Shown here: in pieces, positions 12,279 to 58,885 of the stretch | Numbering within the stretch: the first letter of the stretch is position 1 | Layout: every line of letters starts with the position of its first letter | From: Plicaturopsis crispa FD-325 SS-3 | Lineage: Eukaryota > Basidiomycota > Agaricomycetes > Amylocorticiales > Amylocorticiaceae | NCBI GenBank assembly: GCA_000827205.1 | Contig: KN832554.1 | Location: forward strand, 152,751 to 216,750 | Direction: 5' to 3' | DNA: 64,000 nucleotides | The notes under the pieces: model-generated | The model's database searches: none | What the model saw: only the letters and a program-made list of their open reading frames with translations | What the model was told of the DNA's origin: nothing | Made by a program: the position numbers and the translations under genes

Positions 12279-14514
12279 CTAATACAGCTCAATAGAGTCA
12301 TAGACAACATTGGGACTCAGGAAATCGTCGCCCGAGCTACCTGACACGATGTTGATAGTGATTGTATTCGACCCGGCCACGAGAGTTCCCGATGGAATGG
12401 CATACTGTTTCGGTGCAGGGTCAGAATGAAGTAAGACAAGAGTGTGGATGAATACATAAGCACCTCGTACAGCTCGTTGATTCCTCTCCAAGTACCTGCA
12501 ACGAGGCATAGAGGAATCAGAATCGCATCTCAGTGCCTTGATGAGATCTGTCAAACTTCCTTACCTCTGGTGACGCCTCTCGAGTCGACAGCGGTCGGAG
12601 CTACGAATGTATAGCGTGCGCCGTGAGGGCACTGAATTATCCATGTTACGGAAAATCTTACCTGCAGGGATAGAGCTCGTCCAGCTATTCACGGTGACTT
12701 GGGGTCTGCCGCCCGCAAATGCGGACGTGGTCCTGATCCGTAGAGTGCGAGCGCCGATTTGCGACGAGGTCAACGTGCTTTTGATAGTGGTTGGATTATT
12801 GACATCTGGACCCGCCATGAATTAGAAACGCGTAGAAATGCATGGGGGCAGGCAGATACATACCGACGAATTGTGCCATAGGGAAGCTTGAAACAGATGA
12901 CGAGCCCACGGTGAACGTGACCGGACCCCAAGACGACATACGTGAGTCACTCCTACATGCCAAGCGGTTGTGAGCGGATAATGGGGGAAGAGAAAGCTTA
13001 AATCCACGCACGGATGCATGGTCTCTATCTTGTCTGCGTTTAAGAACCCAGATGGCGTTCCGTCGGCGTCCCCGATGCTCCAAATAGCACTAGGCGTGCT
13101 CTCCGCCGACTCCAAATTCAAAGTCGTCGTCCCGCCGGCCGTAACAGCCACACTCGACGTCGCGACTTCCAGCTCGCCCTTGTACAACGTCACCGTGTAC
13201 GTACTCGCCTTCATCAACGGCGAGGTGTACGACGAGCCGCTGGCCGTCGTCCAGTACTGCTCCTTGCTGTTCGCAAAGCCGACGACAGCCGTGAACCCAG
13301 AGGGGATACCCGAGATGGACCCCTTAGCAGTGCCGCGGCTGCTGGCGCCCACTGCGCCGCCAATGTCGAGGTCCACGAAGAAGGAGAGGTCTAGGCTGGA
13401 GCTTGGCTTACTGCCAGAGGTGAAGACCAGCGCGTAAGGGCCGAACAGACCGGTGCGATATGCTTCAGTTTGTTCATGGTTGGAGTTCATATCTGCGGGT
13501 ACGCCAATGAGGTTGCTTACAACAGAAAAATAGAAGTGGGAATCTACGTACAAAAGTATAGCTCCTGCTGGGCAGAGCCTTGGTTGTTGATATCTACAGC
13601 ACCGCGGATGACATTAGTGTCGGCTGAGAAAACGTATGACACTCCGACTGACCGCGGAAGAAAGGGCCACCTGAAGAGCTCTCATACCCAGTTCCAGGAA
13701 CAACCATCCATGCGGCGCCTGCAGCGCCAGAAACGCCGTGCACTTGGTTCTCAATGAACCTCACGCTTGAGTAGAACTTGGAGCGGGTCTGTCCGTCCAG
13801 GCTGAATACGTCAGACCCCTCAATCGCGGTACCGCCGTTTACATCTGCCGCCGTAATGCCGTCATTGAAGGCCGTCCGTGCGAGACGGGTGATCCAGCGC
13901 AGTTCACCTGAAAGAGAGAGAGAAACGCGTCAATACGCGTTGTAATAGAAAAAGAAGGCGCGTCTTACCGACGGTGGGCTCAGAAGCGATATTGGTGGCC
14001 ATGTAAATGGTGCTGTCGCCACTTTTTGCGACGTAGTAGTGGGACTGTAGGAAAGTCAGAGATCAGTCATTGGAGTACTGAAATGCCGACTCACCAACGT
14101 GTCGGTCCTGACGAAGACAACGATGTAGCTGCCAGACACCTTGTATGCTTAAGATGCAAGATACGTTGAGCATAAATTATATTCCTAACAAGTGAGGAAC
14201 CACAGCACGTACTGACAGTAGCTGAGCCCAAACCAGAGCTCAATTGCGAGAACTTCGTTTGATCCTGGCACTCATATCCGGCGTACTTGAGTGACGTGAT
14301 GTCTCCATTCGCAGTGTTTACTGTGATGGCAGGGATTAGGACGAGCTATAATGTAAGGATAACAACGCAGCAATTTACCTGTAAACACGAGCCCGCCGCC
14401 GGTGTCGACTACGAAATTACTGTCGTTGTCGGTGATCCCGAAGGCAGCATAGGCAGCCGACGTAGCGTAACTGAACAGGAAAGCGAGCGCTGCAAAGAGG
14501 CTGATGAACTTCAT
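12279..14514 (-). CDS. Rhamnogalacturonan lyase, polysaccharide lyase family 4, secreted
   Basis: Cleaves the rhamnogalacturonan I backbone of pectin by beta-elimination outside the cell. The start at 14514 gives a signal peptide ([19 protein letters not shown]). The mature part begins [19 protein letters not shown], typical of fungal PL4. Later exons give [40 protein letters not shown], then [13 protein letters not shown]. Then come the FnIII-like domain ([20 protein letters not shown]) and the C-terminal carbohydrate-binding-like domain ending [13 protein letters not shown]. About nine short introns are needed. All three PL4 regions (catalytic, FnIII-like, CBM-like) are present, so it looks complete. 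A TATA-like box lies about 40 bp upstream of the start. Confidence 0.9.
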
Positions 14515-35699: not shown

Positions 35700-37267
35700 T
35701 CAGTTTAAGTCGATCTCTTCTGTCATGCCAACATCCTCCTCTCCCTCATCCACGCTCGCGCGGCGCGTCCGCTCCTTTTCTACAGGCGGCGGCGGCGGCA
35801 CCTCGACGCTCGACGGCGCGACCACGCCGACAGTCGTCAGCCCCGCGTCTTCATCCGCAGCCTTCGGTGACGCGGGCGCAGGGGAAGCTAGATTACTCTG
35901 CGAGGGCGTCGGCGGGAATTTAAAATGCTTGTTCATTTTACCGTGCGCATCCCGGCTCACTTTTCGTTGCAGCGTCACCGGCTCCTGCTCCTCCTCCGGC
36001 GTCGGCTCAAGCGGCGGCTTGCTTTCGGGCTGGGCGGCGGGCGGCGAGGATGGGTTGGTGCGCGCGGGCGCGGGCATGGAGGCGCGGTGCGATGCGTGGT
36101 TTGAGGTGGCGTTGGGCGGGCTGGTCGGCGAGCGCACGAGGGAGGCCTGCGACATGGACTGCGGACGGTTGTACGGCGACGCACTCGTGGGGGCGGCAGG
36201 GTTTGCGCCCAGATAATACGACGCGATCGGCACCATTCTGCAGTCGTTATACGTCGATCAGCGGCTGGACAAAAATGGGTGGAAGATCCCACGGACCTTT
36301 TCTCGCTATGGCAGGCTAATATCCAATGCGGCTGAACGACTGGAATACTGAGCTGTAGTGCACGCTGATACTCAACGCCCGGAGCGCCTGTGCCGTTCCC
36401 TGTCGCCTGTGCGCCATTCGGCGTTACCGCAGGGGTGGTGCACACGAAATGCGTCGTGTCAATTTGAATTTTGTCGCTCCATTTCGCATTCATCTCCCGC
36501 AGGGCTAGCTTCGCGTTCTCGAGCATAACACTGTCTTGCACGTTTCCAAAGCAGACGGAGATGCCGGACGTGTCAGTCATGGTATGGGTCCGCACGCGGA
36601 TAAGATTCGACGGGAACGTCCCAGCGGACGTGCGGAGGATGAGCTGGAACGAGTACTCAGTGTTCAGCTCGAGCCCGGAAAGCTTGGTGGAGGTATTTGT
36701 GAGTGGCGAAGGGATAGCAGCCAGGCGCTGCCCATTTCTGTATATGTCGAGCGAGCGCAATTTGGCGGTCGCGAGTTGTATAGAGGGCCATTCTAGGGTA
36801 ACAGACGTTTGTGTAACATTCCGCAACTGCGACACGTCTATGCTCAGCATGCTGCTCCTGTTGCGCAGATAGACGCGACACGCACCTCCAGTTTAGGGTT
36901 TTCAGGTACTCTCCGTCCGAACGCGTCCAGTATATCGTTTTGTAGTGCCCAGAATTCGGTATCCCGCTTCTTCTCCTGGGCGTGGTTCTGGTGCACGGCA
37001 ATGTTGACAATAGAGCCTGTAGCGGTGCCAGGAGGTAGCAGGATGGACGGGAATTCGATCAAGTGCGCTCGTTCGCCGAGAAGAATCTGAAGTCTCCACT
37101 GTCAGGTCAAGTCCCAGCAAACGTATGTGCATTCTTACAGCCATCCCGGCGTCTACAGACGCGACGACGACCAGTCAGTGACCCATAGGCGCGATAGGTA
37201 GTCTCTTTCACGAACCTAGCTTGCCAACAGTAAACGTGAAGCTTTCATCGTGGCTTGACACCGACAT
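35700..37267 (-). CDS. CHS5: Chitin biosynthesis protein CHS5 (exomer scaffold)
   Basis: Core subunit of exomer, which sorts chitin synthase and other cargo from the trans-Golgi to the cell surface. The start at 37267 gives MSVSSHDESFTFTVGKL. The next exons read AILLGERAHLIEFPSILLPP and GTATGSIVNIAVHQNHAQEK, the N-terminal dimerisation domain. The fibronectin type III domain follows (RNVTQTSVTLEWPSIQLATA, RSLDIYRNGQRLAAIPSPLT, GLELNTEYSFQLILRTSAGT). The BRCT domain reads SGISVCFGNV, DTTHFVCTTPAVTPNG and VQPHWILACHSEKR. The ~180-residue C-terminal tail is Pro/Ser-rich and ends acidic (DEGEEDVGMTEEIDLN). Introns follow GKL, GMA, NPKLE and SEK; the third is 58 nt. Domain order and length fit Chs5. 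Confidence 0.93.
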
Positions 37268-41629: not shown

Positions 41630-43390
41630 ATAACTGGGACATCAGTATTCCCACATTTTTCTTACGCCACTTGCAGGCTCTTGCAGGAGCTTGCACAAGC
41701 TTGCACACCCAGTGGAAAGTCCGGCGAGGGCTTTCGATTGACAGCGAGTAAAGACCTAGCCATCAAATGATCATCGAGCGCTATCGACTGCCGTCGTGAA
41801 ATGCCTCGACGACCTGCTTCTTCGAGATATTATGGTCTGATTATTCTCAGTTTCTCTCCTTTTTCTCCTCGCAAATCCTACAGCTGCCAAGTCGGCGACT
41901 TGCCTTCAGCAAATTCAGTCTCGAATTGCTTACCTAAGTTCGCTAGGCCAGGCGGACTTTCAATGACTTGCCAGTACGGCTGCTTGCATCGTCGTCTCCT
42001 CCTTCCTCTAACACACGACAGTCACTTGTATTTCCCTCTCCCTCGTCGCTCGTTCACCTCTCCCTTCAACGACGCGCCCCTTGCGCCAGCGACGCCCTGC
42101 CCCCTGCCAGTGTCGTTGATGCGTAACTGGCAATGCGCAACCAGCCACGTCACCACGCCCGCTCGACGACACCGTCCTCCGTCCAGCTGGACTCGGGGTG
42201 CAGCTATACGCGGCCCCGGCAATACCTTGCCCCGTCCCCTCCTACTTTGTGCCAGAGGCCCCGCAATGCACCAGCAATTGGCGGGCTTATCCCACGTCAT
42301 TTAGGCATGCGGCTGCCACGCACATTGTAGACGGGTCACGACCCCCACGCCTGCCGCGCTTCGACAGCCTGGGGGAGCTGGCCTTCTCTTCATTCACAGA
42401 GACTCAACTTCGGTCAAATCGTAGGGGCTTGGCCTAGGTGCTCGATGCACGGTAATGCGTAAAAGGTAAGCACGAGCACGATAGGAATTCCAATTTAGGC
42501 TGTATCGTTGACAACAAAACCAGGTGTCACGCAGCCGCCTCCCGCTCTCCAGCACTTCGTAGTATTCCGGTCTAGGTGAGTCGCAGTGCATGCTGTACGC
42601 GCACCTAATTATACTAACTATGACTGACATCTAGGTGTAACTCATTCGCTGGGCACATGTGCTGGCTATGGGCTTGACCGGAACGTTAACACAGTGACGG
42701 AGGGTGCAGTCCGCCGGGGAAAGTGTAGGCAATCGGACACGGCGTAGGTAGCCTGGTGGGGTGTTCCTCGTACTAGTAGGAATAGAATGTAGTATACGCC
42801 CGTATTTGTGTAGTAGTGGTTGTTCCCATAATATGATTTGATTTCCCCCTTCTCGAATAGTTGCCTCGATGGCGCTCGATAGCGCTGGATGAACCGAAGA
42901 AATGCAGTAGAATACGTTTCCCATGTCGAGGTAGATCGAGGAACATTCGAGCAGCGTAAAAGAAGCAAAATCGAATAACTCGGACTCGTTCGACGTAGAT
43001 ATACCTCATTGAGAATCTAGGTAATGATCACATTTCGAGCCGGGTCGATGTCCAGCGATGCAATCGATTACGCTCGCTTTTAATCGAAGGCCCTCGCCGG
43101 ACTTTCCACTGGGTTGCACAAGCGGTGCAAGCGACGTAAGTCGCGAAAGTTCCCAGGTCCGAAAGCTAGGTTCCGAAACGCGTAAGTCCACCTAAATTTT
43201 GGTGTCCTACTCCATTATGCCGGTGTTTCTATGCCTTCAGGAGAGTTCATAAACACTCTATGTACTATAGAAAGTGGTTTCTGATCTATGTACAAAAATA
43301 TTTTGTGCTACACAAATTAAGCAGGAGCAGGCAAATTTCGAGCTTGGGCTGCAAGTGGCGCAAGTGCCCAAGAAAAATGTTAGATTCCTG
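41630..43390. mobile_element. Degenerate inverted-repeat element (non-coding, old)
   Basis: Near 41715 the sequence CCCAGTGGAAAGTCCGGCGA is followed by GGGCTTTCGATT. Its imperfect reverse complement lies at about 43080-43116. Outside this core both sides carry Gln-codon-like strings with CTTGCA repeated (41661-41710; 43117-43140). A second layer of similarity (ACATTTTTCTT ... CGCCACTTGCAG) links 41653-41680 with the reverse complement of 43340-43385. So both ends of a ~1.5-1.75 kb segment are inverted copies, now diverged. I see no convincing target duplication and no coding frame inside. Exact ends are uncertain. Confidence 0.5.
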
Positions 43391-43550
43391 ATGGACTCCT
43401 GTCCTAGAGGAAAACAATTTCAACGGCTTGAGTTGGTTGAATAAAATGGCGTCCATGATGGTAAATACGAGAGGGTTTTTGCAACGAGTACTCAAACTGA
43501 AGGCAGCTGAAGGCGCGAAACCTCCGCGGCAAATTCGCGGCGTTTCAATG

Positions 43551-43555
43551 TTGAC
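43551..43555. repeat. Target-site duplication, left copy (TTGAC)
   Basis: TTGAC directly precedes the left terminal inverted repeat. The same five bases directly follow the right repeat at 56109-56113. Confidence 0.75.
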
Positions 43556-43842
43556 CCTCAGTAAAAACGCAAATTCGTGTGGCAGTCTGCCAGCAGTGCA
43601 CGGACAGTCGTCTGCAAGTCGTCTGCAAGTAAAAATTGACTTTTTACTGTATATTTTACGATTTTTTGACTGGAATGTGACTGCTGTCCGCCAGACTGTC
43701 GTCGCGAGATCTACCAACGATCTCGTAACGATCTGCCTTGTGTTGCGTCCTCAAAAGTCACTTAAAAGTCAGGTAAACTTGAGAATATAGAATCATTGTC
43801 ATTAGGGTCTATGTACTATACAAGAAAAGCTGCAGACAGGTG
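43556..43842 (+). repeat. Left terminal inverted repeat, 287 bp
   Basis: Begins CCTCAGTAAAAACGC. Inside are short tandem units (GTCGTCTGCAA twice in a row near 43607-43630, and AAAAGTCA/TTAAAAGTCA near 43752-43770), which may be protein-binding sites. The inner end is at ...GCAGACAGGTG. The only difference noticed from the right repeat is at about 43827 (AAGAAAAGC versus AAGAATAGC). Confidence 0.85.
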
Positions 43843-44985
43843 CACAGGGGGGTAAACTACCGATGTGATACTGCTACAGTATATGCGGACGCACGAGGAT
43901 ACTGGGCTTTATCACATAGAACAGAGGCAGATAATATTGAAACTGAAATACTCACCTATTCTGCGAGTCCGGAGAGGGAAGGGCACATATTCCTAGATGC
44001 GGTCATTCCGAGAATCAATTCCTTATGAAGGGGTGTTGATGAGCATCGAGAATTGCGATGAGATGGACACAGACACACCTCCTTCCGCTGGCGTACAAAC
44101 CATCTACGTGAGAGAGCACGATGAAGTCACACCTTAACAAGTCGCCGCGCAGACCGTGCGGTGACGGCAGATATTGAAATATATCGTCGAGGGCTATACG
44201 AAAGCCTACTTGCTCAGTGGCCTTTCCAAAAAGTAGAAGGTGATGCTGACTCACGTATTCGCTCGTATGATTTGGCCCTCCAATGTCCAGATCTCGTGTG
44301 TAGGCATAACTAGAAGGGAGAAGACTGGAAGTACATCGCAGTGGCCCAGCGTAGGGCGAGGATACGAAGGCAGTCGGTCGGTTGTCTGCAGCCTGCGCAA
44401 CCGCGCGATTTGCGTCCAAGTCCTTTGTATGCCTTTGTTTGTCTGACACATTTTACACATCTGCCACGCTAGGTTCGGTTCAAGCCCCGTCTCCTTTTTC
44501 GGATGGATATTTCGTGCTCCGCAAGCTCCGCAACATCCGAGGAGAAGGGGCTTGAACCAAGGTCCGTCGAAATCGTAGGTTTTTTGACGGCCTTCAGCGG
44601 TTGCACTGCTGCTCAAAATATTACGAGCTTGCTGTACAATATGAGCTCAGAGGTTTTTCTGAGCATTCTGTCTCTTCGAAATATCGACTCGATGTGTTTG
44701 CGTGACCTTGTAAGAGCGACAAGGTCGGCTTCGTCCGTTGGAAGTTGAGCCTATGTTAATGTGTATATAGCTCAATGTAGAGTACATTTAAAAAAGAACG
44801 GGGAACGTAGTCGCCTAGGACAGACTACTGTGAGCTTTTTGTACACCGGAAGCGATGTATTTGAGCAAGTATTGAGGCCTGTGGATACTCCGCGACGAAA
44901 AAATGAGATATTCGACTTGACTTGACGCAATCGAAAACGCGTCGCGTCGCGTTCCACTCTTTGTCTCCTACCACCGTTTGCTGGC
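43843..44985. other. Element interior between left repeat and helicase start
   Basis: Overlapping short open frames exist on both strands (for example 44015-44449 minus) but none has a recognisable domain. At 44477-44488 and 44547-44558 lie the two arms of a hairpin (GGTTCAAGCCCC and GGGGCTTGAACC), about 430-510 bp before the helicase ATG. Presumed promoter region. Confidence 0.4.
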
Positions 44986-47835
44986 ATGTCAAACTCTACT
45001 ACGCGTTCTACGCGACCCAGCACGCCGCCTCGTACCACAGGAACGCCCCGACGTAGTCATGGACCCCCAAGCCAACACCGAAACATACCCTCCGAGCCTA
45101 CCACGCCTCGTCGACACAAAGCGCCACCTGCTCCCCATCGACTGCGCGGACTCGTATCCCTCCCAAAGCACCTCTCGACTCATGACAAGGTCGAAGCAGC
45201 GCTTGTCGACAAGCTCAAGCTTTCGTTTCTGCCGGATAAGTGGCAGGTCGAACTGATCATGCGCGTACTGCAAGGCTACGATTGTATCTTCTGTGCTGGA
45301 ACCGGGTATGGCAAAAGCCTCGTCTTTCAGGGCCTTGCAGCGCTCGGAGACCGCAAAAAGCTGGTGCTGATTATAAGTCCGTTGAAAGCTCTGGAAAGAG
45401 ACCAAGTTTGTGTTTTCCAAATGTATGACCTATCGGATCTTGCTGATCTGACATTCTCAAGGTCGAGGAGGCAAAGAAGAAAAAGCTGAAAGCGACGATG
45501 ATAAACGAGGATACGTCCAGTACCGCGAGTGTATGGCAGGACGTCCGTAGAGATGCGCAGCTTGCGTATCTTTCTCCCGAGATGGCGCGTTCGGATGGCT
45601 TCACGAAGCTGTGGAAAGACCCGAAGTTCCGCGCACGGCTCACGGCTGTCATCACCGACGAAGCGCACTGCGTTGACGAGTGGGGCGACGAGGACTTCCG
45701 TCCCGACTATCGCAAACTCGACACGCTTCGGAATTTCACGGGCCAGGAGATCCCGTTTGTCGCGTGCACAGCGACTTCATCGACATCGACCTTCGATGTC
45801 ATCTGGAAGACCCTTGGCTTCGGGTACAGACCTTTCTGGGGTATCGATGTCGGTTCTGACCGGCCAAATCTCCTGTATCTCACACGCACGCTCATCAACA
45901 CGAAAAACCCTGTGCTCGACGCCCTCCATGTTCTCCCCACGATCCTAAACGCTGACACTACTCGAGAGGCAATCAGCAAATGCCTTTTCTACTTTGACTC
46001 CGAGGCAGCCTGCAGACTTGCGGTACGGACGCTACGCAAATGTCTTCCCGCCCACCTGCGCGACTGTGTACAAGCATTCTCCTCCGATCTTTCTGAGGAG
46101 GGAAAGCAGAAGTGCTGGGATGGCTTCTCTAGCGGTCGCATACGCATCGTCTGCGCTACGGACGCGGCAGGCATGGGCTGCAACGTACCTGATGTGCGTT
46201 ATTCGATTATCTTCGGCTGCCCAAAGTCGTTGGCAGTAATCGCGCAGAGGTGGGGTCGCGCGGGGCGCGATCGCTTGACCGCGGCCACATGTATTTTACT
46301 GGTTCCTTCGTGGGCATTCCGACCTTCGCCTCCGCTGGTCGGTCTTGCGGTGCAGAAAGTACGAGGCAAAGCGAAGGTCGCGCTCGAACCCAAGTCTAGT
46401 ACAAAAAAACGCGCGAATCTGGATTCCCGTCTCGAGGAGTTCATTAACCTCAGCGCTGAGACTCCCCGGGGTATGTGATCTAGAGCTTAGATTCGAAATA
46501 ACACTGACTCGCATTTGCACAGGCTGCTCGCATCGATACCTTGCGGCCGCGTTCCGCCCCCTCACCCGCCTGACAACATTCCATGACCTTTCCGCTCGTC
46601 ACGCAACCAGCCTTGGTTCGCGTTCGCAGGAATGCTCTTTAGAGCTCAGCTGGACTGTTCTCAACCTACCAGACAGGTCGCCGCCAGCTGATCGTTGCTG
46701 TAATCACTGCAACCCGACGCTCCTCGGGCCGTTCCAACCTGCCTCCAAAAACGATGCACGACTCTTCACTTTTGCTGCCGATTTTATCTATCCACTCGCT
46801 CAGCCCCCATCCCGTCCTCCTTCTCGTGCCTCGGATGGGTCGAATGACACGGAGGCCGGTTCCGTGGCATCCTCCGTTTCAGTAGGTGAACCGCTCAAGG
46901 GTGTCCATGTCCTTCCTGCGGACGTGAAGGAACGTCTGCGCGAGGCACTCCTTGCTTGGCGAGATCAGCGCCATAAGGACACTGGTTCGAGTGTCTTAAT
47001 ATCGTCCTCCTTTATCTTGCCGCCGAAGGTGCTAGAAAGTGTTGTCACCATATGCACCCGATTCTTGAATGAGCCCATCATCGACCCCCAAACAATCCGC
47101 AGGCTCGTCAAGTGGGATCTCGCAACAGATGATAGCCTTCTCACGGTTGCCGCCGTCATCGCAGAGTGGACCGACTATGCCAGGACCTTCGCAACACCGA
47201 AGTCTCAGCACCGGCGTAAAAAGGCTAGGGACGACAAAGATCTCACTCCGCGTGCAAGAATCCCACAGCCTGTCTTTGGCTCGAGTCCCGTGCGGCCGAC
47301 GGTGACCCCTACCTCTCGTGAGTTTCTCATTCGTGTTGACAAACGTGGCCGCTCTACTTAACCCACCCATGTATCAGGTAGCGGTGATATGTTTCAGACA
47401 CCGATTACACCACAGGCTCCGCAGCTTGTACCACACATTCCTTCACAGCTACGTGACTTTGCCCCTGCCGCTCCAGCACATCCACACACATATCCCAGTC
47501 CCCACTACTACGGTTACACGCAAATGACCTTCCCCTACGGCCGCGATGGTACACCATATCAAGCCTACGCACCAAGTTACCCTTCATCTCCGGTTCCTTA
47601 TTCATCCCCATATGCAGTCTCACACTTCCCACCCCCGTACCGACCGCTACCGCCTTCAAATTACATCACCGCGCCGTCGCTCCCGCCAGCATTATCTCAT
47701 CCTAGCACAATCTTTCGTTCGAGTTTTGTACATACATCTAGTTCTTTAGCTGTTCCACCACCACGGTCTCAGCATCCTACCATGTCATCTCCCCAGTTGC
47801 ATACTCCTCTCCCCCACCAAGCGCACCAGCAGTAG
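44986..47835 (+). CDS. RecQ-like DExH-box DNA helicase, element-encoded
   Basis: ATP-dependent superfamily 2 helicase. The start at 44986 gives MSNSTTRSTRPSTPPRTTG and a basic disordered N-terminus. The core shows: the Q-motif-like region (LSFLPDKWQVELIMRVLQGY); Walker A CAGTGYGKSL; LIISPLKALERDQ; motif II VITDEAHCVDEWG; motif III ACTATSS; IRIVCATDAAGMGCNVPDV; and motif VI IAQRWGRAGRDR. All catalytic motifs are intact. A Cys/His cluster follows the core (GCSHRY, then RCCNHCNPTLLG), possibly a zinc site. The C-terminal ~140 residues are Pro/Tyr/Ser/His-rich and disordered. Introns lie after LERDQ, SAETPR and TPTS. The gene lies wholly inside the terminal repeats, and its 3' coding end overlaps the convergent DUF6589 gene by 59 bp. 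Confidence 0.88.
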
Positions 47836-50289
47836 AGCCATTTCCATCCATATTCTCATTTCCATGAATATCTTCGTAGCTGTCATGCTCGATTGGATTT
47901 GTTGCAGTGTTGTCAAAGACCGTGTTACTGTCAAGCCTTGTGTCGCGCGTTCGTGCTTGTGTCGCTTCGTCGATGGGGTAGCCAAGCTCGGGATCGTAAG
48001 TCGATTTTTCGATGAACTCAACGAATTTACCCTCATTCCATATTTCAGCACCGACAGCGAGGACGTCAACGATAGCAGACCGTTTGGCCGCGTTTGTAGG
48101 CGGGTTGTTCTGCTGCTTCCGAGTCTTTGATGGTGGTGCTGGCACGAAATTCCCCTTTTTCAAGACATGCGCGTCTTGCTTGATCATCTGCTCGACCAAA
48201 ACGCGCATGTCTTCCTGAAAAGCCAACTCCTTGGATCGGCGAGCTCTATCAGCGTCTCCAAAGAAGTTTGCGACCAGGTGAGTGATGTCGCGAAATGCTT
48301 CGACACACGCTGAGCCTTTCTCCATGATATATTCCACAGTAACTCCATTCCCTTGCGCAATAAACACCCGCTAGAGTAAAGAACAAGAGACGTTCATGTA
48401 AGTTGGAGACGGTGTTGACTTTGCGTTGACCGCGACTGACCTTGACCCAGAAGTTCAATTGCTCAAGATACAGATCGGCTGGTATCCACCGACCGTCAAG
48501 ACCCCATCGGTTTACGAACCATGCCTTTTCCAGTGCCGCCCGAAGTGCCTCTGTCACCTCATACTTCAACTTGATCAGAATCTCTGCACATTCCCGTGCG
48601 TAGTTGTGCTGTGACGCGCCCCGGAACGAAAACGCCCAATACTTTAAAACACGCAGCACACGGCCAGCGTCTGCCCAGCTGACCGCATGTTCAAACTCGC
48701 AGAAGAAGAGGGCGTCTCGGATAAAGTAGATTGCATGTGCGAGGTAATCGTCTTCGCCTTTTTTCGCATCCTCGGCGGCTGCCGTCGTCGCGAACTGAGC
48801 CGTTATTTTCTCAGATATCTGTCGGACCTCCTCCATGTTTGGACGCCATGCGCTGAGCTCTGACCACAGTGTCATGTTTAGGAATAGCCTGTTAGAGATG
48901 CGGCAAAGTGAGTGATATGCTTTGCGGTTATGTATTCATCTAACCGCACACTTACATGACAATGTGAAGGAGCCGAGCGATCAAGGAATGCCTGATAAGT
49001 GCCTTCGCTGCTGCATAATTCGGTTTGTTGACGTCCCAGGTTCTGTTCAAAAGCCCCTTGTGTGCGGCAAGAGATGTCGGATCGAGGATGGCATTTCCAT
49101 AGTGAGTCCGCATAATTTTATGTGATGCCTGCAGCGCGTGATGCCAGACTGCACTCAGCTCTTCTGGGTTTTCTACTCTCTCCATAGTATTGACATCGTC
49201 GACCCTGTCACGTCTGGCGGCTCGCAAGTTGTTTGACGTCAACCAGTCGCCTTCGATGATGCGCGTTTTCGAAGACCACTCTTCCTTGGTAAGCGTTGAG
49301 CGTTGCTGTATCTGTTCGACGACCTTGACGATCCCCTTCTTGGAGCCTTCGTTGACGTCGAAAACACCAAACGGACGTGTATCCGTTTTCTCGGTCTTCA
49401 GTGGCCTGTCCTTGGGTATCATGTTGGCCGCTTCTTTCAACATATCAGCCCGACCCTCCCACTTCTGGTTCCCAGGACAGTATCGAATCAGCATGTCCGC
49501 AATCAGGCCTGAGAAGGCCTTCTGCATATGGGCATCGTCTTCTTGGGTTGGCATTATGTCGGCTATCGTGGCGGCGGCGCGTTTCCCTCGAAGGTCCAGT
49601 TTTGCTTTTAAGTTTTCGGCTTCAAGATCAACACCCGGTAGACTGATTATTGCCGCGTTCGTCGCGTGGATCATGGAGTTCCGGTTCGTCACCCGTTGTT
49701 GGAATTTGCGCACAAAAATGTTGATGTTGTCGAAGATAACGAAGAATAGCTGGCCACTTTTCATCAGGTCAACTGCGAACGCAATCGCATCCTCGGATAT
49801 GCGTTTCTTGAGGCGCTCGACGGTGTTGCTAGACACACCATCTGGAAAAACCTGAAAACCTAATCCAAATCATTTAGGCCTAAATAGCAGGATTTAGGAA
49901 ATTTTAGCATAAGGTTAGGTTTAGAGGTTCTAAGCTAGCCCCCCCCTCTTATTAGCATGAAATTAGACTGAAATTAGAATCATTTTAAGATGTTTTTTAG
50001 GCATGTTCTTAGGCATGTCTTTAGGACCATAGGTAGAGCTAATGAGAACCAATTTGCTGTCTCAATGTGACACTGATTTATTGCAGTCTGGATGTACTTA
50101 GACTCAAAAATCTGGCATCCACATCAAATGAGGACATGAACTGTACACATTTGCACTCCAGCAACCAGCAGTAAAGAAAATGCAATATATTTATGCTTAG
50201 GAATACATCAATACATAAGGCTATACTACAATGCTGAAGAGAGTAGACATGCATATCTACACAAGAACATAACAAAACAACATGTATGG

Positions 50290-51030
50290 GCACGACGAGG
50301 GCGAATATGCACGAGCCGGTAGGGACACACACGGCGGAGATGCGCGATCTGGTGGACAGGGGAACGGCGCTGTTGCGGATGTGCGAAGAATGCGCAAGCC
50401 GATGGGGATGTGCACAGTGTTGTCGAGGATGTGCGACATGCAGCCGCAAGTGTACGACGTGTCGGCGCACAACGCTGGCGGAGATGCGAGAGCGGATGGG
50501 GAGGTGCCCGGCGCTGTCGCAGATGTGCAAAGCGGTGAGGATGCGCGCGGAGGTGGGCGATGCCGTGCAGCCGCGGGTGTACGACGTGTTGGCGCACGAC
50601 GCTGGCGGAGATGCACGGGCAGCCGGGAAGGTGCACGGCGCCGTCATGGGTGTGCGAGGAGGGTGTGCGCGGAAGTGGGGATACGCGAGCTGGTGGCACG
50701 GCGTTGTCGGAGGTGGGCGACGCCTTGCAGCCGCGGATGTACAACGTGTGGGCGCACGACGCTGGCAGAGATGGGTGGGCAGATGGGGAGGTGCACGGCG
50801 CTGTCGTGGGTGTGCAAGGACAATGTGCGCGGAGGTAGCAATACGCGAGGAGGTGGGGATACGCGAGCTGGTGGGGATGTGCACGGCAATGTCGAAGGTC
50901 CACGACGTGCAGCCGCGGATGTACGACGTATGGGCGCAACGATGGCTCAGATGCGCGAGTGAACGGGGATGTTGTGGGTATGCGAGGAGGAGGATGTGCG
51001 AGGAGGTGGGGATTTGCACGGCGCTGTTGT
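50290..51030. repeat. Degenerate GC-rich minisatellite
   Basis: Repeated units of the kind GCAGCCGCGGGTGTACGACG, then GGCGCACGACGCTGGCGGAG, then GTGCACGGCGCTGTCGTGG, begin near 50441, 50567, 50729 and 50911. Spacing varies (about 126-182 bp), with shorter GAGGTGGGGATACGCGAG inserts. This makes long but artificial Cys/His/Pro/Arg-rich open frames on the minus strand. The composition differs sharply from the AT-rich ends of the same nested element. Confidence 0.65.
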
Positions 51031-51035
51031 GGGTG

Positions 51036-51515
51036 TGCGACTAGAGCGCGCGCGTGCTGGCGTAGACGCGCATGACGCTGATGCAGATGCGCGACGGGGT
51101 GGGTGTACAGGGGGCTAGCGTCGGTGTGCTGCGTGCTGCCGTCGAGGTCGACGTACACGCATCGCTGGCGTGGACGCATAGGTGCGCTGGGTACGAGTAA
51201 ATGGATGGAATGTGTAACGCACCGTCAAAGTTCATGTCGAACCCTTCCTCCTAACCCGGCGGCGGCGGTCGATGGGAATCATCCAATAGATATGCATGGG
51301 GCTGCGCATCGTCTGGTGCGGGACATGCGCGTTAACGCAACGAAGAAAGCAGTAGGAAGGGAACAAAGAAAGCCTAGCAAGCACGAGATGGAAAAGACAA
51401 GGAAAAGACTTCAGTTTTCGACGCGCTGTGCAGCGGAGTTCTAAATTCCCACGTGGAAGATTCTCGTAGTTTCTATCGACTACAGCGCTGTCAGGCCTCA
51501 CCCGCGCGTTTGGAC
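51036..51515. repeat. 480 bp duplicate, copy 1, ending at the gap
   Basis: Identical by eye to 51775-52254. This copy ends at the last base before the run of N. Confidence 0.85.
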
Positions 51516-51774
51516 NNNNNNNNNNNNNNNNNNNNNNNNNNNNNNNNNNNNNNNNNNNNNNNNNNNNNNNNNNNNNNNNNNNNNNNNNNNNNNNNNNNNN
51601 NNNNNNNNNNNNNNNNNNNNNNNNNNNNNNNNNNNNNNNNNNNNNNNNNNNNNNNNNNNNNNNNNNNNNNNNNNNNNNNNNNNNNNNNNNNNNNNNNNNN
51701 NNNNNNNNNNNNNNNNNNNNNNNNNNNNNNNNNNNNNNNNNNNNNNNNNNNNNNNNNNNNNNNNNNNNNNNNNN
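51516..51774. other. Assembly gap (259 N)
   Basis: A run of unknown bases inside the nested element. The two 480 bp copies abut it exactly on each side, so the gap may be artificial. Confidence 0.95.
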
Positions 51775-52254
51775 TGCGACTAGAGCGCGCGCGTGCTGGC
51801 GTAGACGCGCATGACGCTGATGCAGATGCGCGACGGGGTGGGTGTACAGGGGGCTAGCGTCGGTGTGCTGCGTGCTGCCGTCGAGGTCGACGTACACGCA
51901 TCGCTGGCGTGGACGCATAGGTGCGCTGGGTACGAGTAAATGGATGGAATGTGTAACGCACCGTCAAAGTTCATGTCGAACCCTTCCTCCTAACCCGGCG
52001 GCGGCGGTCGATGGGAATCATCCAATAGATATGCATGGGGCTGCGCATCGTCTGGTGCGGGACATGCGCGTTAACGCAACGAAGAAAGCAGTAGGAAGGG
52101 AACAAAGAAAGCCTAGCAAGCACGAGATGGAAAAGACAAGGAAAAGACTTCAGTTTTCGACGCGCTGTGCAGCGGAGTTCTAAATTCCCACGTGGAAGAT
52201 TCTCGTAGTTTCTATCGACTACAGCGCTGTCAGGCCTCACCCGCGCGTTTGGAC
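51775..52254. repeat. 480 bp duplicate, copy 2, starting at the gap
   Basis: Identical by eye to 51036-51515, offset 739 bp. It starts at the first base after the run of N. Confidence 0.85.
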
Positions 52255-54048
52255 GCCCCACCCCCTTCAGCACTTTCAGCGCTCAGCGCGCTCAGTCAGC
52301 GCATTGAGGTAATCATTATCCAGCGCCAAGTCAACGCGACTATCGACTGGCTCTTGTTTAACGCCCCCACAAGACTATTGCTGCGCTGCATTTGGAACCG
52401 GCCCGCTTGTACATAGGTAGTCGGAATAAAATAGACATTGCATTTTGGCAAACAATGCCGTCCGAAAGGCTACTGATACGCTCAGATCTTTAGTATGAGC
52501 TCTAGAGCCAAAGACGTGCAATCAAGCCAAACCACGCTATCTCAGTCCACAAAATGCACCCAAAATTTCAGTGTCAGTGCTAGATGTTCGCAATTAGAAC
52601 TGAACTCCCTAATTCACCCGGCAAATTAGTGCATAGATTATGTGTGTACATCCTAAGGACATACAATTAGGTCTAGGATGTCTGATTTAGAACCTAAAAC
52701 TTGACTGATCTTGTAGTATCTGTCCTAAATATGTTTAAGCCCCATAATTTAGATGGCACATTACCAACTAAATTGGAGGTGTGCATAATAAGTAGATGTC
52801 AATTGCACATAACTAGGCCTAAGCCCTCTAAACAAGAGCTTAAAGGGATGCTAAATTTGCAGTGTCTATGCTAAACATGCCTAATTATTCTCTTATTAGC
52901 CAGAGTCCTCTAAATTATGCAGGTTTGTGCAAATTAGCTAAGTGTTAGAGGAGATTAGGATTTTTGATTTTTCCTGATGACAGACTCCGGCATTGCTAAG
53001 CATGGTAAGTACCCTCGCACTGGTTCCTGATATTTTGAAGAACAGCCCGAGGAGAAGCGGGAGCGCATTTGTCGCCCTATTGCGCACAAACGCGAGCATC
53101 GTGATAGCCAAGATGATTGCCTGTCGCGGGTGACTCACGGTGAGCTCTGTGCTTCGCTGTTTCAGTAAAAAAACTAGTTGTACTCACGAAGACTGGGTTC
53201 CGGCTAAAACCAGGCTCGAGGGGTGTCTGCGCCGATGCGGAATGGGCTTCCGCCGCTCCTGCATAGACATCCTCGGGGCCAGACTCGTCCCCGCCATCGT
53301 TGGCATCCTCCTCGGTATCTCTCTGCCCCTTCTGGTTTGCCTCTCGTTTCCTTCTCTTTCGGTACTCATTGGGCGATGCTGCGAATGTGTATAGGATCCC
53401 GAAAATAAACGGCGCGGATGCCCTGTACTTCTCGAGAATCTTTTCAGGTCGCAGGAGTTCTCGGATGGATGCTACTGTGAGCTTTTTGACTTGGATTTGT
53501 AGGTCCGGGTCGCTGATGAGCTTATCGCTCTCCTCTAGCGCAATTTCGTGCGCGCACGGGATGATCATGTCGTGCAGGTATGTCCGGACCTTAGGCCATC
53601 GCTCGTGCCAAAGTTTGAAGATAACTGCAGGTCCGAAATGCTCCTGTGGTTGCGGTGCGGACTTCCTCCGTGCCAAGAATAACGAAGCCTTGTCCTTCAC
53701 CGCTTTTATCTCCGTTGTGAAGATAAATTGGAGGAGCTCCCGCACGGACACGCCGAGGTAAAGCAGGAGGGAGAAGATAAGGTGCAGTCGAGTTTCTAGT
53801 GTGGCCTTTTGCAAAGGTGCGAGTGCAGCAGAATCTTTCCAGTAGTCCGAATTGAACCGCAGCTCTTCAGAGTCCATAGCTGCCAGTAGATGGTAGTTGC
53901 GCACGACTATCGACACCACAGGGGCCCGTCGTAAATTTTCCTGTCCCCCCTCTCGCCACCGGAGAGTCAAGAGGGGCCCGTTCAATTCAACTTTTGTTCT
54001 CTCATGGCCGTCCTTTATATCTGCCCCCCGGTATACATGACAAGACAT

Positions 54049-54623
54049 AGGTACTTTTGCTATCTTGTGAAGCACTTTTTATTTGGCCCCCTAATCGTCA
54101 CATTCTGTGTTCAATGTTGTCTCGACGCGCTAATTAACGCGCGCGCCACAGCACTCAGACGCGCTCGTCACGTTTGTCACACACAGAGTGACTTGACCTC
54201 CTCGACTGAAATATATTCATTGACTCTAATCAATCACCACCGAGAGGGTAAAAATGCGCTGAATATGTTTCATAAATCGATTTCATTAGCCTCAGCCCAA
54301 AAGATCACCAAAGTCGACGAATCAATGCTTGTACTTTGCTAGTCTTACAGGCAAACAAGTCGAGTCCAAAAGCTCAGTACAGCGCAATGGGAACTTCATT
54401 TTTCTCACTACAAAAAATTGGATATACTCGAGATACATATTGCGAACATGTCCCCCAGCAAAAGTTAGATAAACGGAGCTCATTTGGTAGAAACATTTGC
54501 GTTCGAGTAACCTGCCCTTTCGGCGTACTTTGGAGCAAGCCCCTTCTGTGAAGGTTCGCCGGCCCGCCGGCGCGGAACAGGGGCTTGTTCCGAACCTACT
54601 GCCACGCCGCGTCGCCTTCATTG
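54049..54623. other. Element interior upstream of the DUF6589 gene
   Basis: No supported coding frame. Contains hairpin arms GGAGCAAGCCCC (54532-54543) and GGGGCTTGTTCC (54580-54591), similar in core to the hairpin upstream of the helicase. Presumed promoter region of the DUF6589 gene. Confidence 0.35.
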
Positions 54624-55393
54624 CACAACGCATGGTCCTTAATTTCGCCTGTGCGAAATTTAACCCGAAAGTGCGTCCGAAAGAGGTGGAGTTGGGTTGA
54701 GCTTTCGCCGCGGAGAAATGGCAGATTTAGGTCGAGAAAAACATGTACCAAAATATGTTGTTTCGGGTTACATTTTGCACCAAATTTAGCCAGAGCGAAA
54801 GAAAGGCTTTCGCCCGTGCAAAGTAAAGTGTTTTGCCCTTTCGAAATGTAAGCCGAAAGTCAATGAGAAACAGGCAAGATCGGCTCCAATTTCTCAAGGG
54901 CAAAATCTCCACTTTCTTGAATGCAAAAGCCACCCCAACAAGGGATGTTTCGGGTCCCATTTCTGGTCAGCAAAAGATGTTCTTTCGGCCATCGATGGAC
55001 TTTCGCAGGTGAGAAAGCCCATCGATGGCCGAAATAACTTCTTTTTAAAGGGAGAAATGCAGGCCGAAAGACATGGTTTTGGTACCTGTTTTACACACGA
55101 CAAAGGGGACATTTTGCCCTTGATAAATTGGAGCCGATCTTGCCTGTTTCTCATTGACTTTCGGCTTACATTTCGAAAGGGCAAAACACTTTACTTTGCA
55201 CGGGCAAAAGCCTTTCTTTCGCTCTGGCTAAATTGGGTGCAAAATGTAGCCCGAAACAACATATTTTGGTACATGTTTCTCTCGACCTAAATCTGCCATT
55301 TCTCCGCGGCGAAAGCTCAACCCAACTCCACCTCTTTCGGACGCACTTTCGGGTTAAATTTCGCACAGGCGAAATTAAGGACCATGCGTTGTG
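54624..55393. mobile_element. Fold-back element with long inverted arms
   Basis: The left arm from 54624 (CACAACGCATGGTCCTTAAT) and the reverse complement of the right arm ending at 55393 match for about 270 bp with few differences. The centre (54980-55040) holds a smaller palindrome (CCATCGATGG on both sides). TTG directly flanks both ends (54621-54623; 55394-55396), a 3 bp target duplication. The element is packed with CGAAAG/CTTTCG motifs on both arms. It has no coding capacity; open frames on the two arms are mirror images. The CACA ends with a 3 bp duplication resemble EnSpm/CACTA-type non-autonomous elements, but this assignment is tentative. Confidence 0.75.
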
Positions 55394-55396
55394 TTG

Positions 55397-55821
55397 TCAA
55401 CGTTTCAATTTTGTTTCCGCTCTACTGTAGCTCTCTATCTCAGTATTACCACAAATGCCTGCCTGCAAACTCTGCGCCCTCGGTGGGCTATTTGGTCGTT
55501 TTCATTGCGATTATCCCAGTCTTCTCCCCGAGTTAGTTTGATCAAGCTAGGCCTGCACACGAGACCTGCAGATCGGAGGGTCCATCGAAGAGGTGAGTCG
55601 GCGGCACCTTCTGCTGTTTCTAACATAGCCACTGAGCGTGCCCCCACGTATCGTTTAGTTCCGTAGCGATATATTCGCTCGACGTTTGCCGTCACCGCAC
55701 GTTTTGTGCCGGCTAGTACTTGTTAAGTGTGAGTGCGCCCAGTCCAACGGCTTCCGGGCTTGTACGCCGGATGAATGCAGGTGTATCTATGTCCCTCTCA
55801 TTGTCATTTCCCCTCCCTATA
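55397..55821. other. Element interior before the right terminal repeat
   Basis: No supported gene or repeat was found. Confidence 0.4.
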
Positions 55822-56108
55822 CACCTGTCTGCAGCTATTCTTGTATAGTACATAGACCCTAATGACAATGATTCTATATTCTCAAGTTTACCTGACTTTT
55901 AAGTGACTTTTGAGGACGCAACACAAGGCAGATCGTTACGAGATCGTTGGTAGATCTCGCGACGACAGTCTGGCGGACAGCAGTCACATTCCAGTCAAAA
56001 AATCGTAAAATATACAGTAAAAAGTCAATTTTTACTTGCAGACGACTTGCAGACGACTGTCCGTGCACTGCTGGCAGACTGCCACACGAATTTGCGTTTT
56101 TACTGAGG
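55822..56108 (-). repeat. Right terminal inverted repeat, 287 bp
   Basis: Reverse complement of 43556-43842 with one difference noticed. It ends ...GCGTTTTTACTGAGG, and TTGAC follows at once. Confidence 0.85.
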
Positions 56109-56113
56109 TTGAC
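56109..56113. repeat. Target-site duplication, right copy (TTGAC)
   Basis: Direct repeat of 43551-43555, immediately outside the right terminal repeat. Confidence 0.75.
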
Positions 56114-56333
56114 CTCCGAGCCTCGAGGCTCCGACATAGTCCAAATGATACAAAACTTCCATCGAGAAGAATGTTGGCGATTCGAAAACCAAGTCAATTC
56201 GAGCGACGAGGGTGCTGCTGCGACAGACAGCATTCAACGCAGCGACAGCTTGACTATCCTGTTTCCGCGGACATTCACAAAACGCTGGGACCCTTAGGAA
56301 ATTGAACGCTCCGCAAGGATTCGGGACATCGAC

Positions 56334-57422
56334 ATGGCAGCCAATTTACCCGAGCACCAAATCTCAGAACTATGTGAGCGTCTTACACTGGACGTTCTGA
56401 ACAGTTACTTACAATATATACAGTCAACCATGCAGACAGCGATTTGACTATACGGTCTTCCGATAACGTCCTTTTCCGAGTCCACAAGAGAAATCTGGAG
56501 ACGTACTCCCCCGCTTTTGCAGGCGCGGGTGCATTCCCCGCCACCGGCCTAGAGGATATCGCACTCCCAGAATCCTCTGCCGTACTAGAGCTAATGCTTC
56601 AATATGTGTACCTCCAACTGCAACCAGACCTCTCCCACACCGAGTTCGAGGTCCTGGCGGGCCTGGCGGAGGCTGTGGAGAAATACGAGATCTATTCTGC
56701 GATGGAGGTGTGCAAGATGCATATGCGGTAAGGCTGCCATCGCACTGACTACTATATGCTGCTAATTCTGGACGACGAAATTCTAGCAGTCGCATATCTC
56801 CCCAAACGGCCTTCGATGTCCTAACATATGCAACGAGACATGGTCATGCGAATATAGCCGATGAGGCGGCAATCCATGCTTTGCATGTGCCTACTGTGAC
56901 GATGCTAGACGCATTGCCTTTGTACTACTTCAGAGCATGGGTGAGCTCTGGTCGTCTATACACCATGCTGCTAAGTACCCATATTCAACCTCGTGACCCC
57001 AGGTCCTGTTTCAGCAATCCTGGTCGGATATACACCGCCGCGTGCTTGCGGCAGAGGATCCCTGGCACGTACTCAACGAACGCAATGGGTATACTTCTCA
57101 TTGCAGAAGATGGGCGCGCATATGGAGCATTCTCATGTGCTACCTCCGCAACGCTCGCGTGCCGGCAGAGCTATCTATCGGGTTCGACAAAGTCCAATCG
57201 CCGTACGAACTGCTCTCGGATCGAGAAAACATGCAGCCTGACTTACCGAGGGCATATCACGACGTCCCCCCAGAGCCCTTTCCGGATTGTTTCTTTGGCG
57301 GGGACTGTTTTGATTGTGAGCTCCAGCTAAAACGATGGGCTGACATGGCTACATCCGAGGGGAAGACATTGCCGAAGTTAAGCTCGTACCTCGTACCAGC
57401 AAGGACTCTGATGGCGGTATAG
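56334..57422 (+). CDS. BTB/POZ domain protein
   Basis: Starts at 56334 with MAANLPEHQISEL. A short intron (GTGAGC ... ATACAG, ~56373-56423) joins to FNHADSDLTIRSSDNVLFRV and HKRNLETYSPAFAGAGAFPA, the BTB core with the typical V-H-K-x2-L-x2-Y/S-x3-F pattern. It continues VLELMLQYVYLQLQPDLSH and EKYEIYSAMEVCKMHM. After the BTB fold come a second helical part (TYATRHGHANIADEAAIHAL, MLDALPLYYFRAW) and, after another intron, a C-terminal Cys-containing tail (PDCFFGGDCFDCELQLKRW). Agaricomycetes carry many such BTB proteins; partners and role are unknown. The start lies only 220 bp from the right end of the large transposon, so its promoter may have been altered by that insertion. Confidence 0.85.
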
Positions 57423-57823
57423 CTATCAGTGGGGCGAGCTGTTTGTTGCAGTCCTGTAGTGTTATTTGACACAGGCTTATTTTTTCAAAAAAACACCTAC
57501 GTATACCTATTGACTTGTCGATCACAATGGCACGATCGCCCACCTTGCAAACATACATAGTAAGCGCGAAAAATCCATGACAATCCACATAAGCAAGTGC
57601 AGGTAGGTAGGTAGTATTTCCGGAGCGATCTCAATGAGGAATACAGTTCCTTCCTTCCTGGTTAGCGCACTACATACATGAGTGAGTACAGGTAAATACA
57701 TACATGATTTACTTTTAAAATTACAACGATAAATTGAAACTTGCGACCACGAAACAGACGACGTCGACCTCACGCCATGGATATCGACGAAGTCTCTCGC
57801 AACAGATCCGCGGCAGCTCCTCT
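57423..57823. other. Intergenic, convergent gene ends
   Basis: Contains a short AGGTAGGTAGGTAG tract near 57600. No supported gene. Confidence 0.45.
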
Positions 57824-58885
57824 TCAATCTGCCCGAGACTTCTTCCTCGGAGATTTCACCTCCTCACTGTCGTTGTCACTGTCACTTCCACCTCTAGTAC
57901 GTTTGCCGTTGGCATTGGAAGCGTCGGGGCCTACCGACGTCGAGCTTTCGGGTTGAGACTGGTCGCGGTTGGAGAGGAATGTCGGCTTGACGTATACGCG
58001 TAGGATGGTTATTTTGATGGTATACGCCTTTAGGAATGGGCCTGGCGGCGAATCGTCATCTGAGTCACTCGGTGACGGAAAGATATCATCTCGGTCGGTT
58101 TCAACAAGGTCTTTTGGCTGTAAGAGATAATTATGCGACGTGCAGTACGGTTTCATTGGCACCCCATGACATACCTCAAGCTCGAGCTCGACTGCCCATT
58201 GATCATCCTTATACCGAACAACCTTGGTGAGTGATCCCAAAGGCTGCATCTGCTTTGAGCGCTCCAATAGGTCGCGCACATATTGCCCACCCCAACCACG
58301 CCCTCCCTCTTCGAAGGCCGTTGCACGGTCAATCGACCGAGCATAAGTATCTGCGAGCAAATCCGGCATGGGCAACTCGGCTCCGTTGGACAGTAATTCA
58401 TACGGCCCATATCCATTTTTTTCGTCAGTGACGCGAAACGAGAAGGGTGGACCTCGAGACGGTCGCTCCTCAGCCTCAGCGCTCAGCTCAGGCTCGTCAG
58501 GGAATTCTTGGGGAAACTCTTCTTCCCCATGCAAGTGTAGGAAAAAGCGGGGGTTGTGCTCTTCCGTCAGGCCCACCACGTCGCTTGTCGCTTCGTCTGG
58601 CCAGGGACCTGTATGTGAGGTGCGAGTATATGTCGTGGGGAATGGGGTATCACTGGCAGGAACATATAGAAGAGCGGAGTGCTCTTGAGACCACCCTTTT
58701 AGCCGTAGGGGAGTGGGCGGCTGCGGGCGCTCGTAGGTACCATATATTTCATCGCCGTCGGCCTGGCACTCAGCGTGAAACATATAAGGTGCTGAGTCCC
58801 AAACTAGCACAGAAATCGATAACGATTTGCTAGCATCGTTTTCCGCTTGTGCAGAGAGAAGGCGAAGAGGATATGGCGAGTCCAT
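57824..58885 (-). CDS. Unknown conserved-looking protein with basic C-terminus
   Basis: The start at 58885 gives MDSPYPLRLLSAQAENDASK. The frame is open for 353 codons, but a perfect intron signature (GTATGTC ... CTTACAG, 57 nt, ~58116-58172) lies inside it without a stop. The mature protein is probably about 334 residues. The middle reads GYGPYELLSNGAELPMPDLL and GGRGWGGQYVRDLLERSKQM. The C-terminal ~60 residues are disordered, with acidic runs (SDSDDDSPPG; GGSDSDNDSEEVKSP) and a basic end (RKKSRAD), suggesting a nuclear protein. No domain recognised. Confidence 0.65.
   Translation of the reverse strand: MDSPYPLRLLSAQAENDASKSLSISVLVWDSAPYMFHAECQADGDEIYGTYERPQPPTPLRLKGWSQEHSALLYVPASDTPFPTTYTRTSHTGPWPDEATSDVVGLTEEHNPRFFLHLHGEEEFPQEFPDEPELSAEAEERPSRGPPFSFRVTDEKNGYGPYELLSNGAELPMPDLLADTYARSIDRATAFEEGGRGWGGQYVRDLLERSKQMQPLGSLTKVVRYKDDQWAVELELEVCHGVPMKPYCTSHNYLLQPKDLVETDRDDIFPSPSDSDDDSPPGPFLKAYTIKITILRVYVKPTFLSNRDQSQPESSTSVGPDASNANGKRTRGGSDSDNDSEEVKSPRKKSRAD

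Follow-up and report, generated by a model that had tools for sequence, protein, structure and literature searches.

What moves a long DNA insertion that carries a RecQ-like helicase gene beside a gene of the DUF6589 family? This question is raised by the stretch 43551-56113 of a 64,000-nucleotide window (the whole stretch of DNA analysed here) from contig KN832554.1 of the basidiomycete Plicaturopsis crispa FD-325 SS-3. The stretch is a real transposon insertion of the class II, terminal-inverted-repeat (TIR) DNA type. We consider, with a probability of roughly 0.6, that it represents one such insertion in which the DUF6589 protein would be the transposase and the RecQ-type helicase its helper.

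Ends of the element and target duplication

The element is delimited by four features:

43551-43555, + strand: left target site duplication, TTGAC (direct sequence comparison)
43556-43842, + strand: left TIR, 287 bp, starting CCTCAGTAAAAACG (sequence comparison)
55822-56108, - strand: right TIR (sequence comparison)
56109-56113, + strand: right target site duplication, TTGAC (direct sequence comparison)

The initial annotation had described 287-bp inverted repeats with a single difference and TTGAC outside both, and this is indeed what we find: 43556-43842 agrees with the reverse-complemented 55822-56108 at 286/287 positions, the sole mismatch being 43827 versus 55837, and TTGAC stands directly outside both repeats in the single copy of the element examined. 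The termini read 5'-CC..GG-3', both TIRs beginning with CCTCAGT, and the likeness of the two ends extends past 287 bp, to 313 nucleotides at 96% (on the left side to 43868). Within the left TIR, an 11-mer is repeated directly 2.3 times (43606-43630). Among the 3 inverted pairs found in the window with a 14-base seed and at least 40 nucleotides, the TIR pair is the longest. A further, subterminal inverted pair (39 nucleotides at 79%, 44543-44581 / 54509-54547) may represent an earlier extension of the ends.

Long TIRs with a flanking duplication are a hallmark of staggered strand transfer by DDE transposons. Since 5-mer pairs drawn at random from the window match in a fraction of 0.00109 (n = 400,000), chance is an unlikely source of 5 matching bases right at the ends. 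The repeats and TTGAC together thus give good support to the transposon proposed initially. That a segmental inverted duplication or an assembly artefact, without any transposition, placed both 287-bp copies is highly improbable: the region does contain an assembly gap with duplicated flanks, but the nearer repeat is 4.0 kb away from the gap and 3.6 kb from the gap's duplicated flank, and the same 5-mer would stand outside both ends by chance in about 0.001 of cases.

Another explanation of these ends concerns their origin. The 287-bp ends could belong to a transposon whose transposase is encoded elsewhere, the element being non-autonomous or composite and the helicase and DUF6589 genes mere passengers. 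Large cargo-carrying elements exist in fungi, and the catalytic role of DUF6589 is only putative, both of which are in favour of passengers. On the other hand, no other copy of the 287-bp repeat is present in the window, where none of its 14-mers recurs elsewhere and a blastn comparison of the element with the rest of the window gave no match; a stand-alone miniature element, which the initial annotation had named as the case that would contradict its composite reading, was therefore not seen there. In addition, the two ends of the 287-bp repeat match each other at a low score of 13 (a value without same-length control), and inward of 43842 both copies keep matching for a stretch before diverging, with no duplication seen at their inner ends. 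We regard the passenger explanation as unlikely. The TIR start sequence had 0 matches in the viral_contigs collection.

A RecQ-type helicase gene and a candidate transposase gene

Two convergent genes, one of them interrupted, occupy the interior of the element:

44986-47361, + strand: RecQ-type helicase gene, exons 44986-45405, 45462-46470 and 46523-47361 (gene model, Pfam, PDB, TIGR00614)
47777-53877, - strand: DUF6589 gene, 5 exons 53877-53188, 53120-52980, 49836-48956, 48888-48441 and 48370-47777 (gene model, PF20231)
49839-52979, - strand: nested 3141-bp insert in the DUF6589 gene, with imperfect inverted ends CATC[A/T]GGAAAAA (end comparison, Pfam)

The introns of the gene models are short (52-70 bases), as fits a fungus. 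The helicase model, with 3 exons and 755 amino acids, has zero internal stops along its 755 codons, in agreement with the complete RecQ-like helicase announced initially. In the spliced protein Pfam recognizes PF00270 DEAD (E 3.4e-20) and PF00271 Helicase_C (1.4e-13), the only further match being a weak Cas3-like one; RQC, zinc-binding and HRDC domains were not reported by Pfam over the full 755 amino acids. The open reading frame (ORF) of exon 2 alone matches TIGR00614 recQ_fam at 3.9e-35 and 121.5 bits, under the curated cut-off of 219.8. The same ORF gave matches to 45 PDB sequences, with WRN first (E 9.4e-22); among the best 38 of the 45, 35 are named WRN, BLM, Q1, Q4, Q5 or RecQ and 3 ATP-dependent DNA helicase, and the last 7 are RNA helicases. 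Strings picked from the translation correspond to what we take to be helicase motifs I to VI. Judged by its superfamily 2 (SF2) domains and its best matches to RecQ proteins, the enzyme is assigned to the RecQ type. In viral_contigs, a collection where fungal genomes are not expected, no helicase relative was confirmed.

The DUF6589 assignment relies on a PF20231 match with an E of 6.2e-102 and 341.8 bits against a curated cut-off of 27, covering positions 4-408 of the 410 of the profile. The gene is thus present between the repeats as first described, but not uninterrupted: the 3141-bp insert splits it, separating exons 2 and 3, and the model comes in two parts of 277 and 640 amino acids around it. 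Coding stops after 52980 and restarts at 49838. The exons on both sides are open, the introns joining them have GT..AG ends, and once the insert and one GT are left out the coding length totals 2754 bases, divisible by 3; consequently the gene was probably whole at the time the insert landed.

Helicases are not known to generate TIRs or target duplications. Within 42000-58000 there are 86 stop-to-stop ORFs of at least 80 amino acids; a Pfam scan of 13 ORF stretches lying within the element detected no families other than helicase and DUF6589. The four intervals outside both genes and the foldback element described below hold 7 ATG-started ORFs of at least 80 amino acids; no Pfam family was found in 4 of these, and the remaining 3, unscanned, lie in the nested insert. 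ORFs crossing the assembly gap were excluded from this search for a third gene. DUF6589 is therefore the best candidate transposase, being the only other recognized gene besides the helicase. Its initial description as cargo is probably wrong: the protein is likely the transposase, and the RecQ-type protein would be a helper.

The DUF6589 protein would be a transposase probably of the RNase-H-like, DDE type, which would bind motifs in the long ends, excise the element and join it to its target with a 5-bp stagger. The RecQ-type helicase would unwind the ends or transposition intermediates. Alternatively, it might assist when the donor or target site is repaired or replicated. In the DUF6589 protein, a hydrophobic stretch ending in an aspartate, LFFVIFDNIN (D313 of 917), is followed later by RIIEGDW with D474, and in this one sequence D313 and D474 are similar to the first and the second of the acidic residues in DDE enzymes.

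Several observations weigh against DUF6589 being the transposase. The Pfam domain, residues 363-764, begins after the putative first aspartate D313, and only one copy of the element was seen. Structure models built from single sequences, one for the exon-3 ORF and one for the ORF surrounding exon 4, reached predicted local distance difference test (pLDDT) values of 39.5 and 38.1, which makes them unusable. Sequence searches of the PDB returned no relative for the exon-3 ORF and a chance-level E of 2.9 for 511 amino acids. The spliced proteins matched no transposase family in Pfam at a maximum E of 10, a setting at which the HMMER filters still discard most matches above 0.1. No DUF6589 relative was confirmed in viral_contigs, genome_contigs, phages or plasmids, where fungal genomes are not expected. 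Finally, the catalytic role of DUF6589 is putative. A PHROGs profile search gave just two matches, with E of 0.068 and 0.12, and Rfam gave no match at gathering scores.

Relationship to known transposons

KolobokH, a Kolobok group bearing a RecQ helicase, is described as found only in fungi, and Kolobok elements are characterized by TTAA duplications, 5'-RR..YY-3' termini and, between the second D and the last E, a C/DxxH motif (PMC9587614). AcademH comprises DNA transposons of the Academ superfamily with a helicase in animals and fungi, and is recorded in Basidiomycota (PMC10799480); its duplications are 9 or 10 bp long (PMC10045372).

The present element could accordingly be a member of AcademH or KolobokH, with DUF6589 as their transposase under another name. 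Both groups occur in fungi and couple a transposase with a helicase (PMC9587614, PMC10799480, PMC10045372). The element shares with KolobokH a RecQ helicase inside a fungal DNA transposon, and with AcademH the helicase of a DNA transposon in Basidiomycota. KolobokP solo repeats have duplications of 3-4 or 4-5 bp (PMC9587614), so that Kolobok duplication length is variable and Kolobok cannot be dismissed on the duplication alone. Nevertheless, the duplication here is TTGAC and not TTAA, the ends are CC..GG instead of RR..YY, and the helicase is a separate, convergent gene on the other strand from DUF6589. The C/DxxH motif occurs in the 640-amino-acid part of DUF6589 at 377 and 748 only, outside an interval 474-634 whose bounding acidic residues are tentative. 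As to AcademH, the 5-bp duplication differs from its 9 or 10 bp. Membership in either group seems to us quite unlikely.

Other families were also considered. KDZ and Plavaka elements of Agaricomycetes are, like this one, fungal DNA transposons able to carry accessory genes. Zisupton has 8-bp and Kyakuja 7-bp duplications, Kyakuja being without TIRs (PMC12730594), whereas the present element has 5-bp duplications and 287-bp TIRs, and no such Pfam match was obtained. Helitrons are ruled out by the TIRs and target duplication and by the RecQ type of the helicase. Transib elements make 5-bp duplications. Duplications of this length are also possible in hAT5 and Ginger2 (PMC12730594, PMC10045372). 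None of these three was matched in Pfam, and their ends differ. RecQ-type helicase genes have also been reported near telomere repeats in fungal genomes (PMC10817607). They have in common with our case the presence of such genes in a fungal genome, but here the gene is enclosed by the TIRs of an insertion, and the window also contains ordinary genes.

In the full-text literature, with a coverage that leaves out most subscription journals, DUF6589 was not found and PF20231 appeared only in an unrelated optics paper. Searches for RecQ or helicase together with transposons in basidiomycetes or fungi, to which Repbase was external, named a pairing with DUF6589 in no title or abstract opening among the matches listed.

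Taken at the level of the sequence, a new transposase family is plausible. We tentatively propose, at somewhat less than even odds, that DUF6589 is the transposase of an undescribed superfamily of fungal DNA transposons whose members would have long TIRs (CCTCAGT..), duplicate 5 bp of their target and carry a convergent RecQ helicase gene as partner; one copy is insufficient to define a family. If the transposase role were true and repeated in other copies, it would assign a function to DUF6589. It would also explain why DUF6589 and RecQ-like helicases are frequent in Agaricomycetes, as the initial annotation stated them to be, and would add a further transposase-helicase pairing to KolobokH and AcademH. 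The role of helicases in eukaryotic cut-and-paste transposition would then become testable.

Nested insertions, assembly gap and surroundings

Besides the 3141-bp insert, the element holds a gap and a second nested element:

51036-52254, strand not assigned: N gap 51516-51774, flanked by the identical 480-bp stretches 51036-51515 and 51775-52254 (sequence comparison)
54624-55393, strand not assigned: nested 770-bp foldback element, ends CACAACG..CGTTGTG (inverted-repeat search, end comparison)

The 3141-bp insert is flanked by a GT repeat (52980-52981 and 49837-49838), and no Pfam match was found in its tested ORFs. Its inverted ends reach a local score of 29, while 500 shuffles of 200-nucleotide ends gave 17.35 on average and 30 at most. 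As this score is within chance, the case for an insertion is built on the match starting exactly at the breakpoints and on the reading frame. A 3-bp TGT duplication is a further possible reading, but the joined frame, as read by hand, then has a stop, and GT is preferred. Alternatively, the interruption could be a giant GT..AG intron at 52981-49842, which would be in frame (GVYGVSSNT, by hand). We rate this as unlikely because the 5' end, GTCATC, is without the +5 G present in 5/5 modelled introns, and because fungal introns tend to be shorter than 3.1 kb. Degenerate repeats forming a GC-rich block (50339-51054) are also present in the insert.

The gap, located within the 3141-bp insert, consists of 259 N, and the 480-bp copies flanking it are identical letter for letter. 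Such flanks are typical of an unresolved scaffolding overlap, a true repeat being possible too, so part of the element length may be an assembly artefact. The arms of the foldback element are 305 nucleotides long at 96% and it is bordered by a TTG duplication (54621-54623 and 55394-55396). EnSpm elements are described with CAC..GTG ends and 3-bp duplications (PMC12730594), and the 770-bp element is like CACTA/EnSpm both in its ends and in its 3-bp TTG duplication. An extra hairpin lies inside it (54972-55045).

The length of 12.5 kb given initially holds as the span between the ends, but it includes the two nested insertions and possibly the gap artefact; without the two inserts and the duplications of these, about 8637 of the 12553 bp remain. 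The near-identity of the TIRs had also been taken to imply recent insertion. This argument is weak, since, in contrast to long terminal repeats, the two ends of a DNA transposon do not become identical anew with every insertion, and since two elements are nested in this element or its ancestor. With its DUF6589 gene interrupted, the present copy is probably not autonomous now; it is possible that it could be moved in trans.

Outside the element, Pfam families were found in 3/10 of the ORFs scanned, and an inverted-repeat search detected a second, separate TIR element:

12825-13613: rhamnogalacturonan lyase (Pfam)
35978-36892: gene with fn3_2 and BRCT domains (Pfam)
56378-56731: BTB gene, just right of the element (Pfam)
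41708-43113: separate TIR element, 1.4 kb, ends CCCAGTGGAAAGTCC (inverted-repeat search)

For this second element, no Pfam match was obtained in the one ORF scanned of its 3. Its arms are 42 nucleotides long at 93%, and it lies about 440 bp left of the helicase/DUF6589 element, between the two copies of a 7-bp TTGCACA duplication (41701-41707 / 43114-43120).

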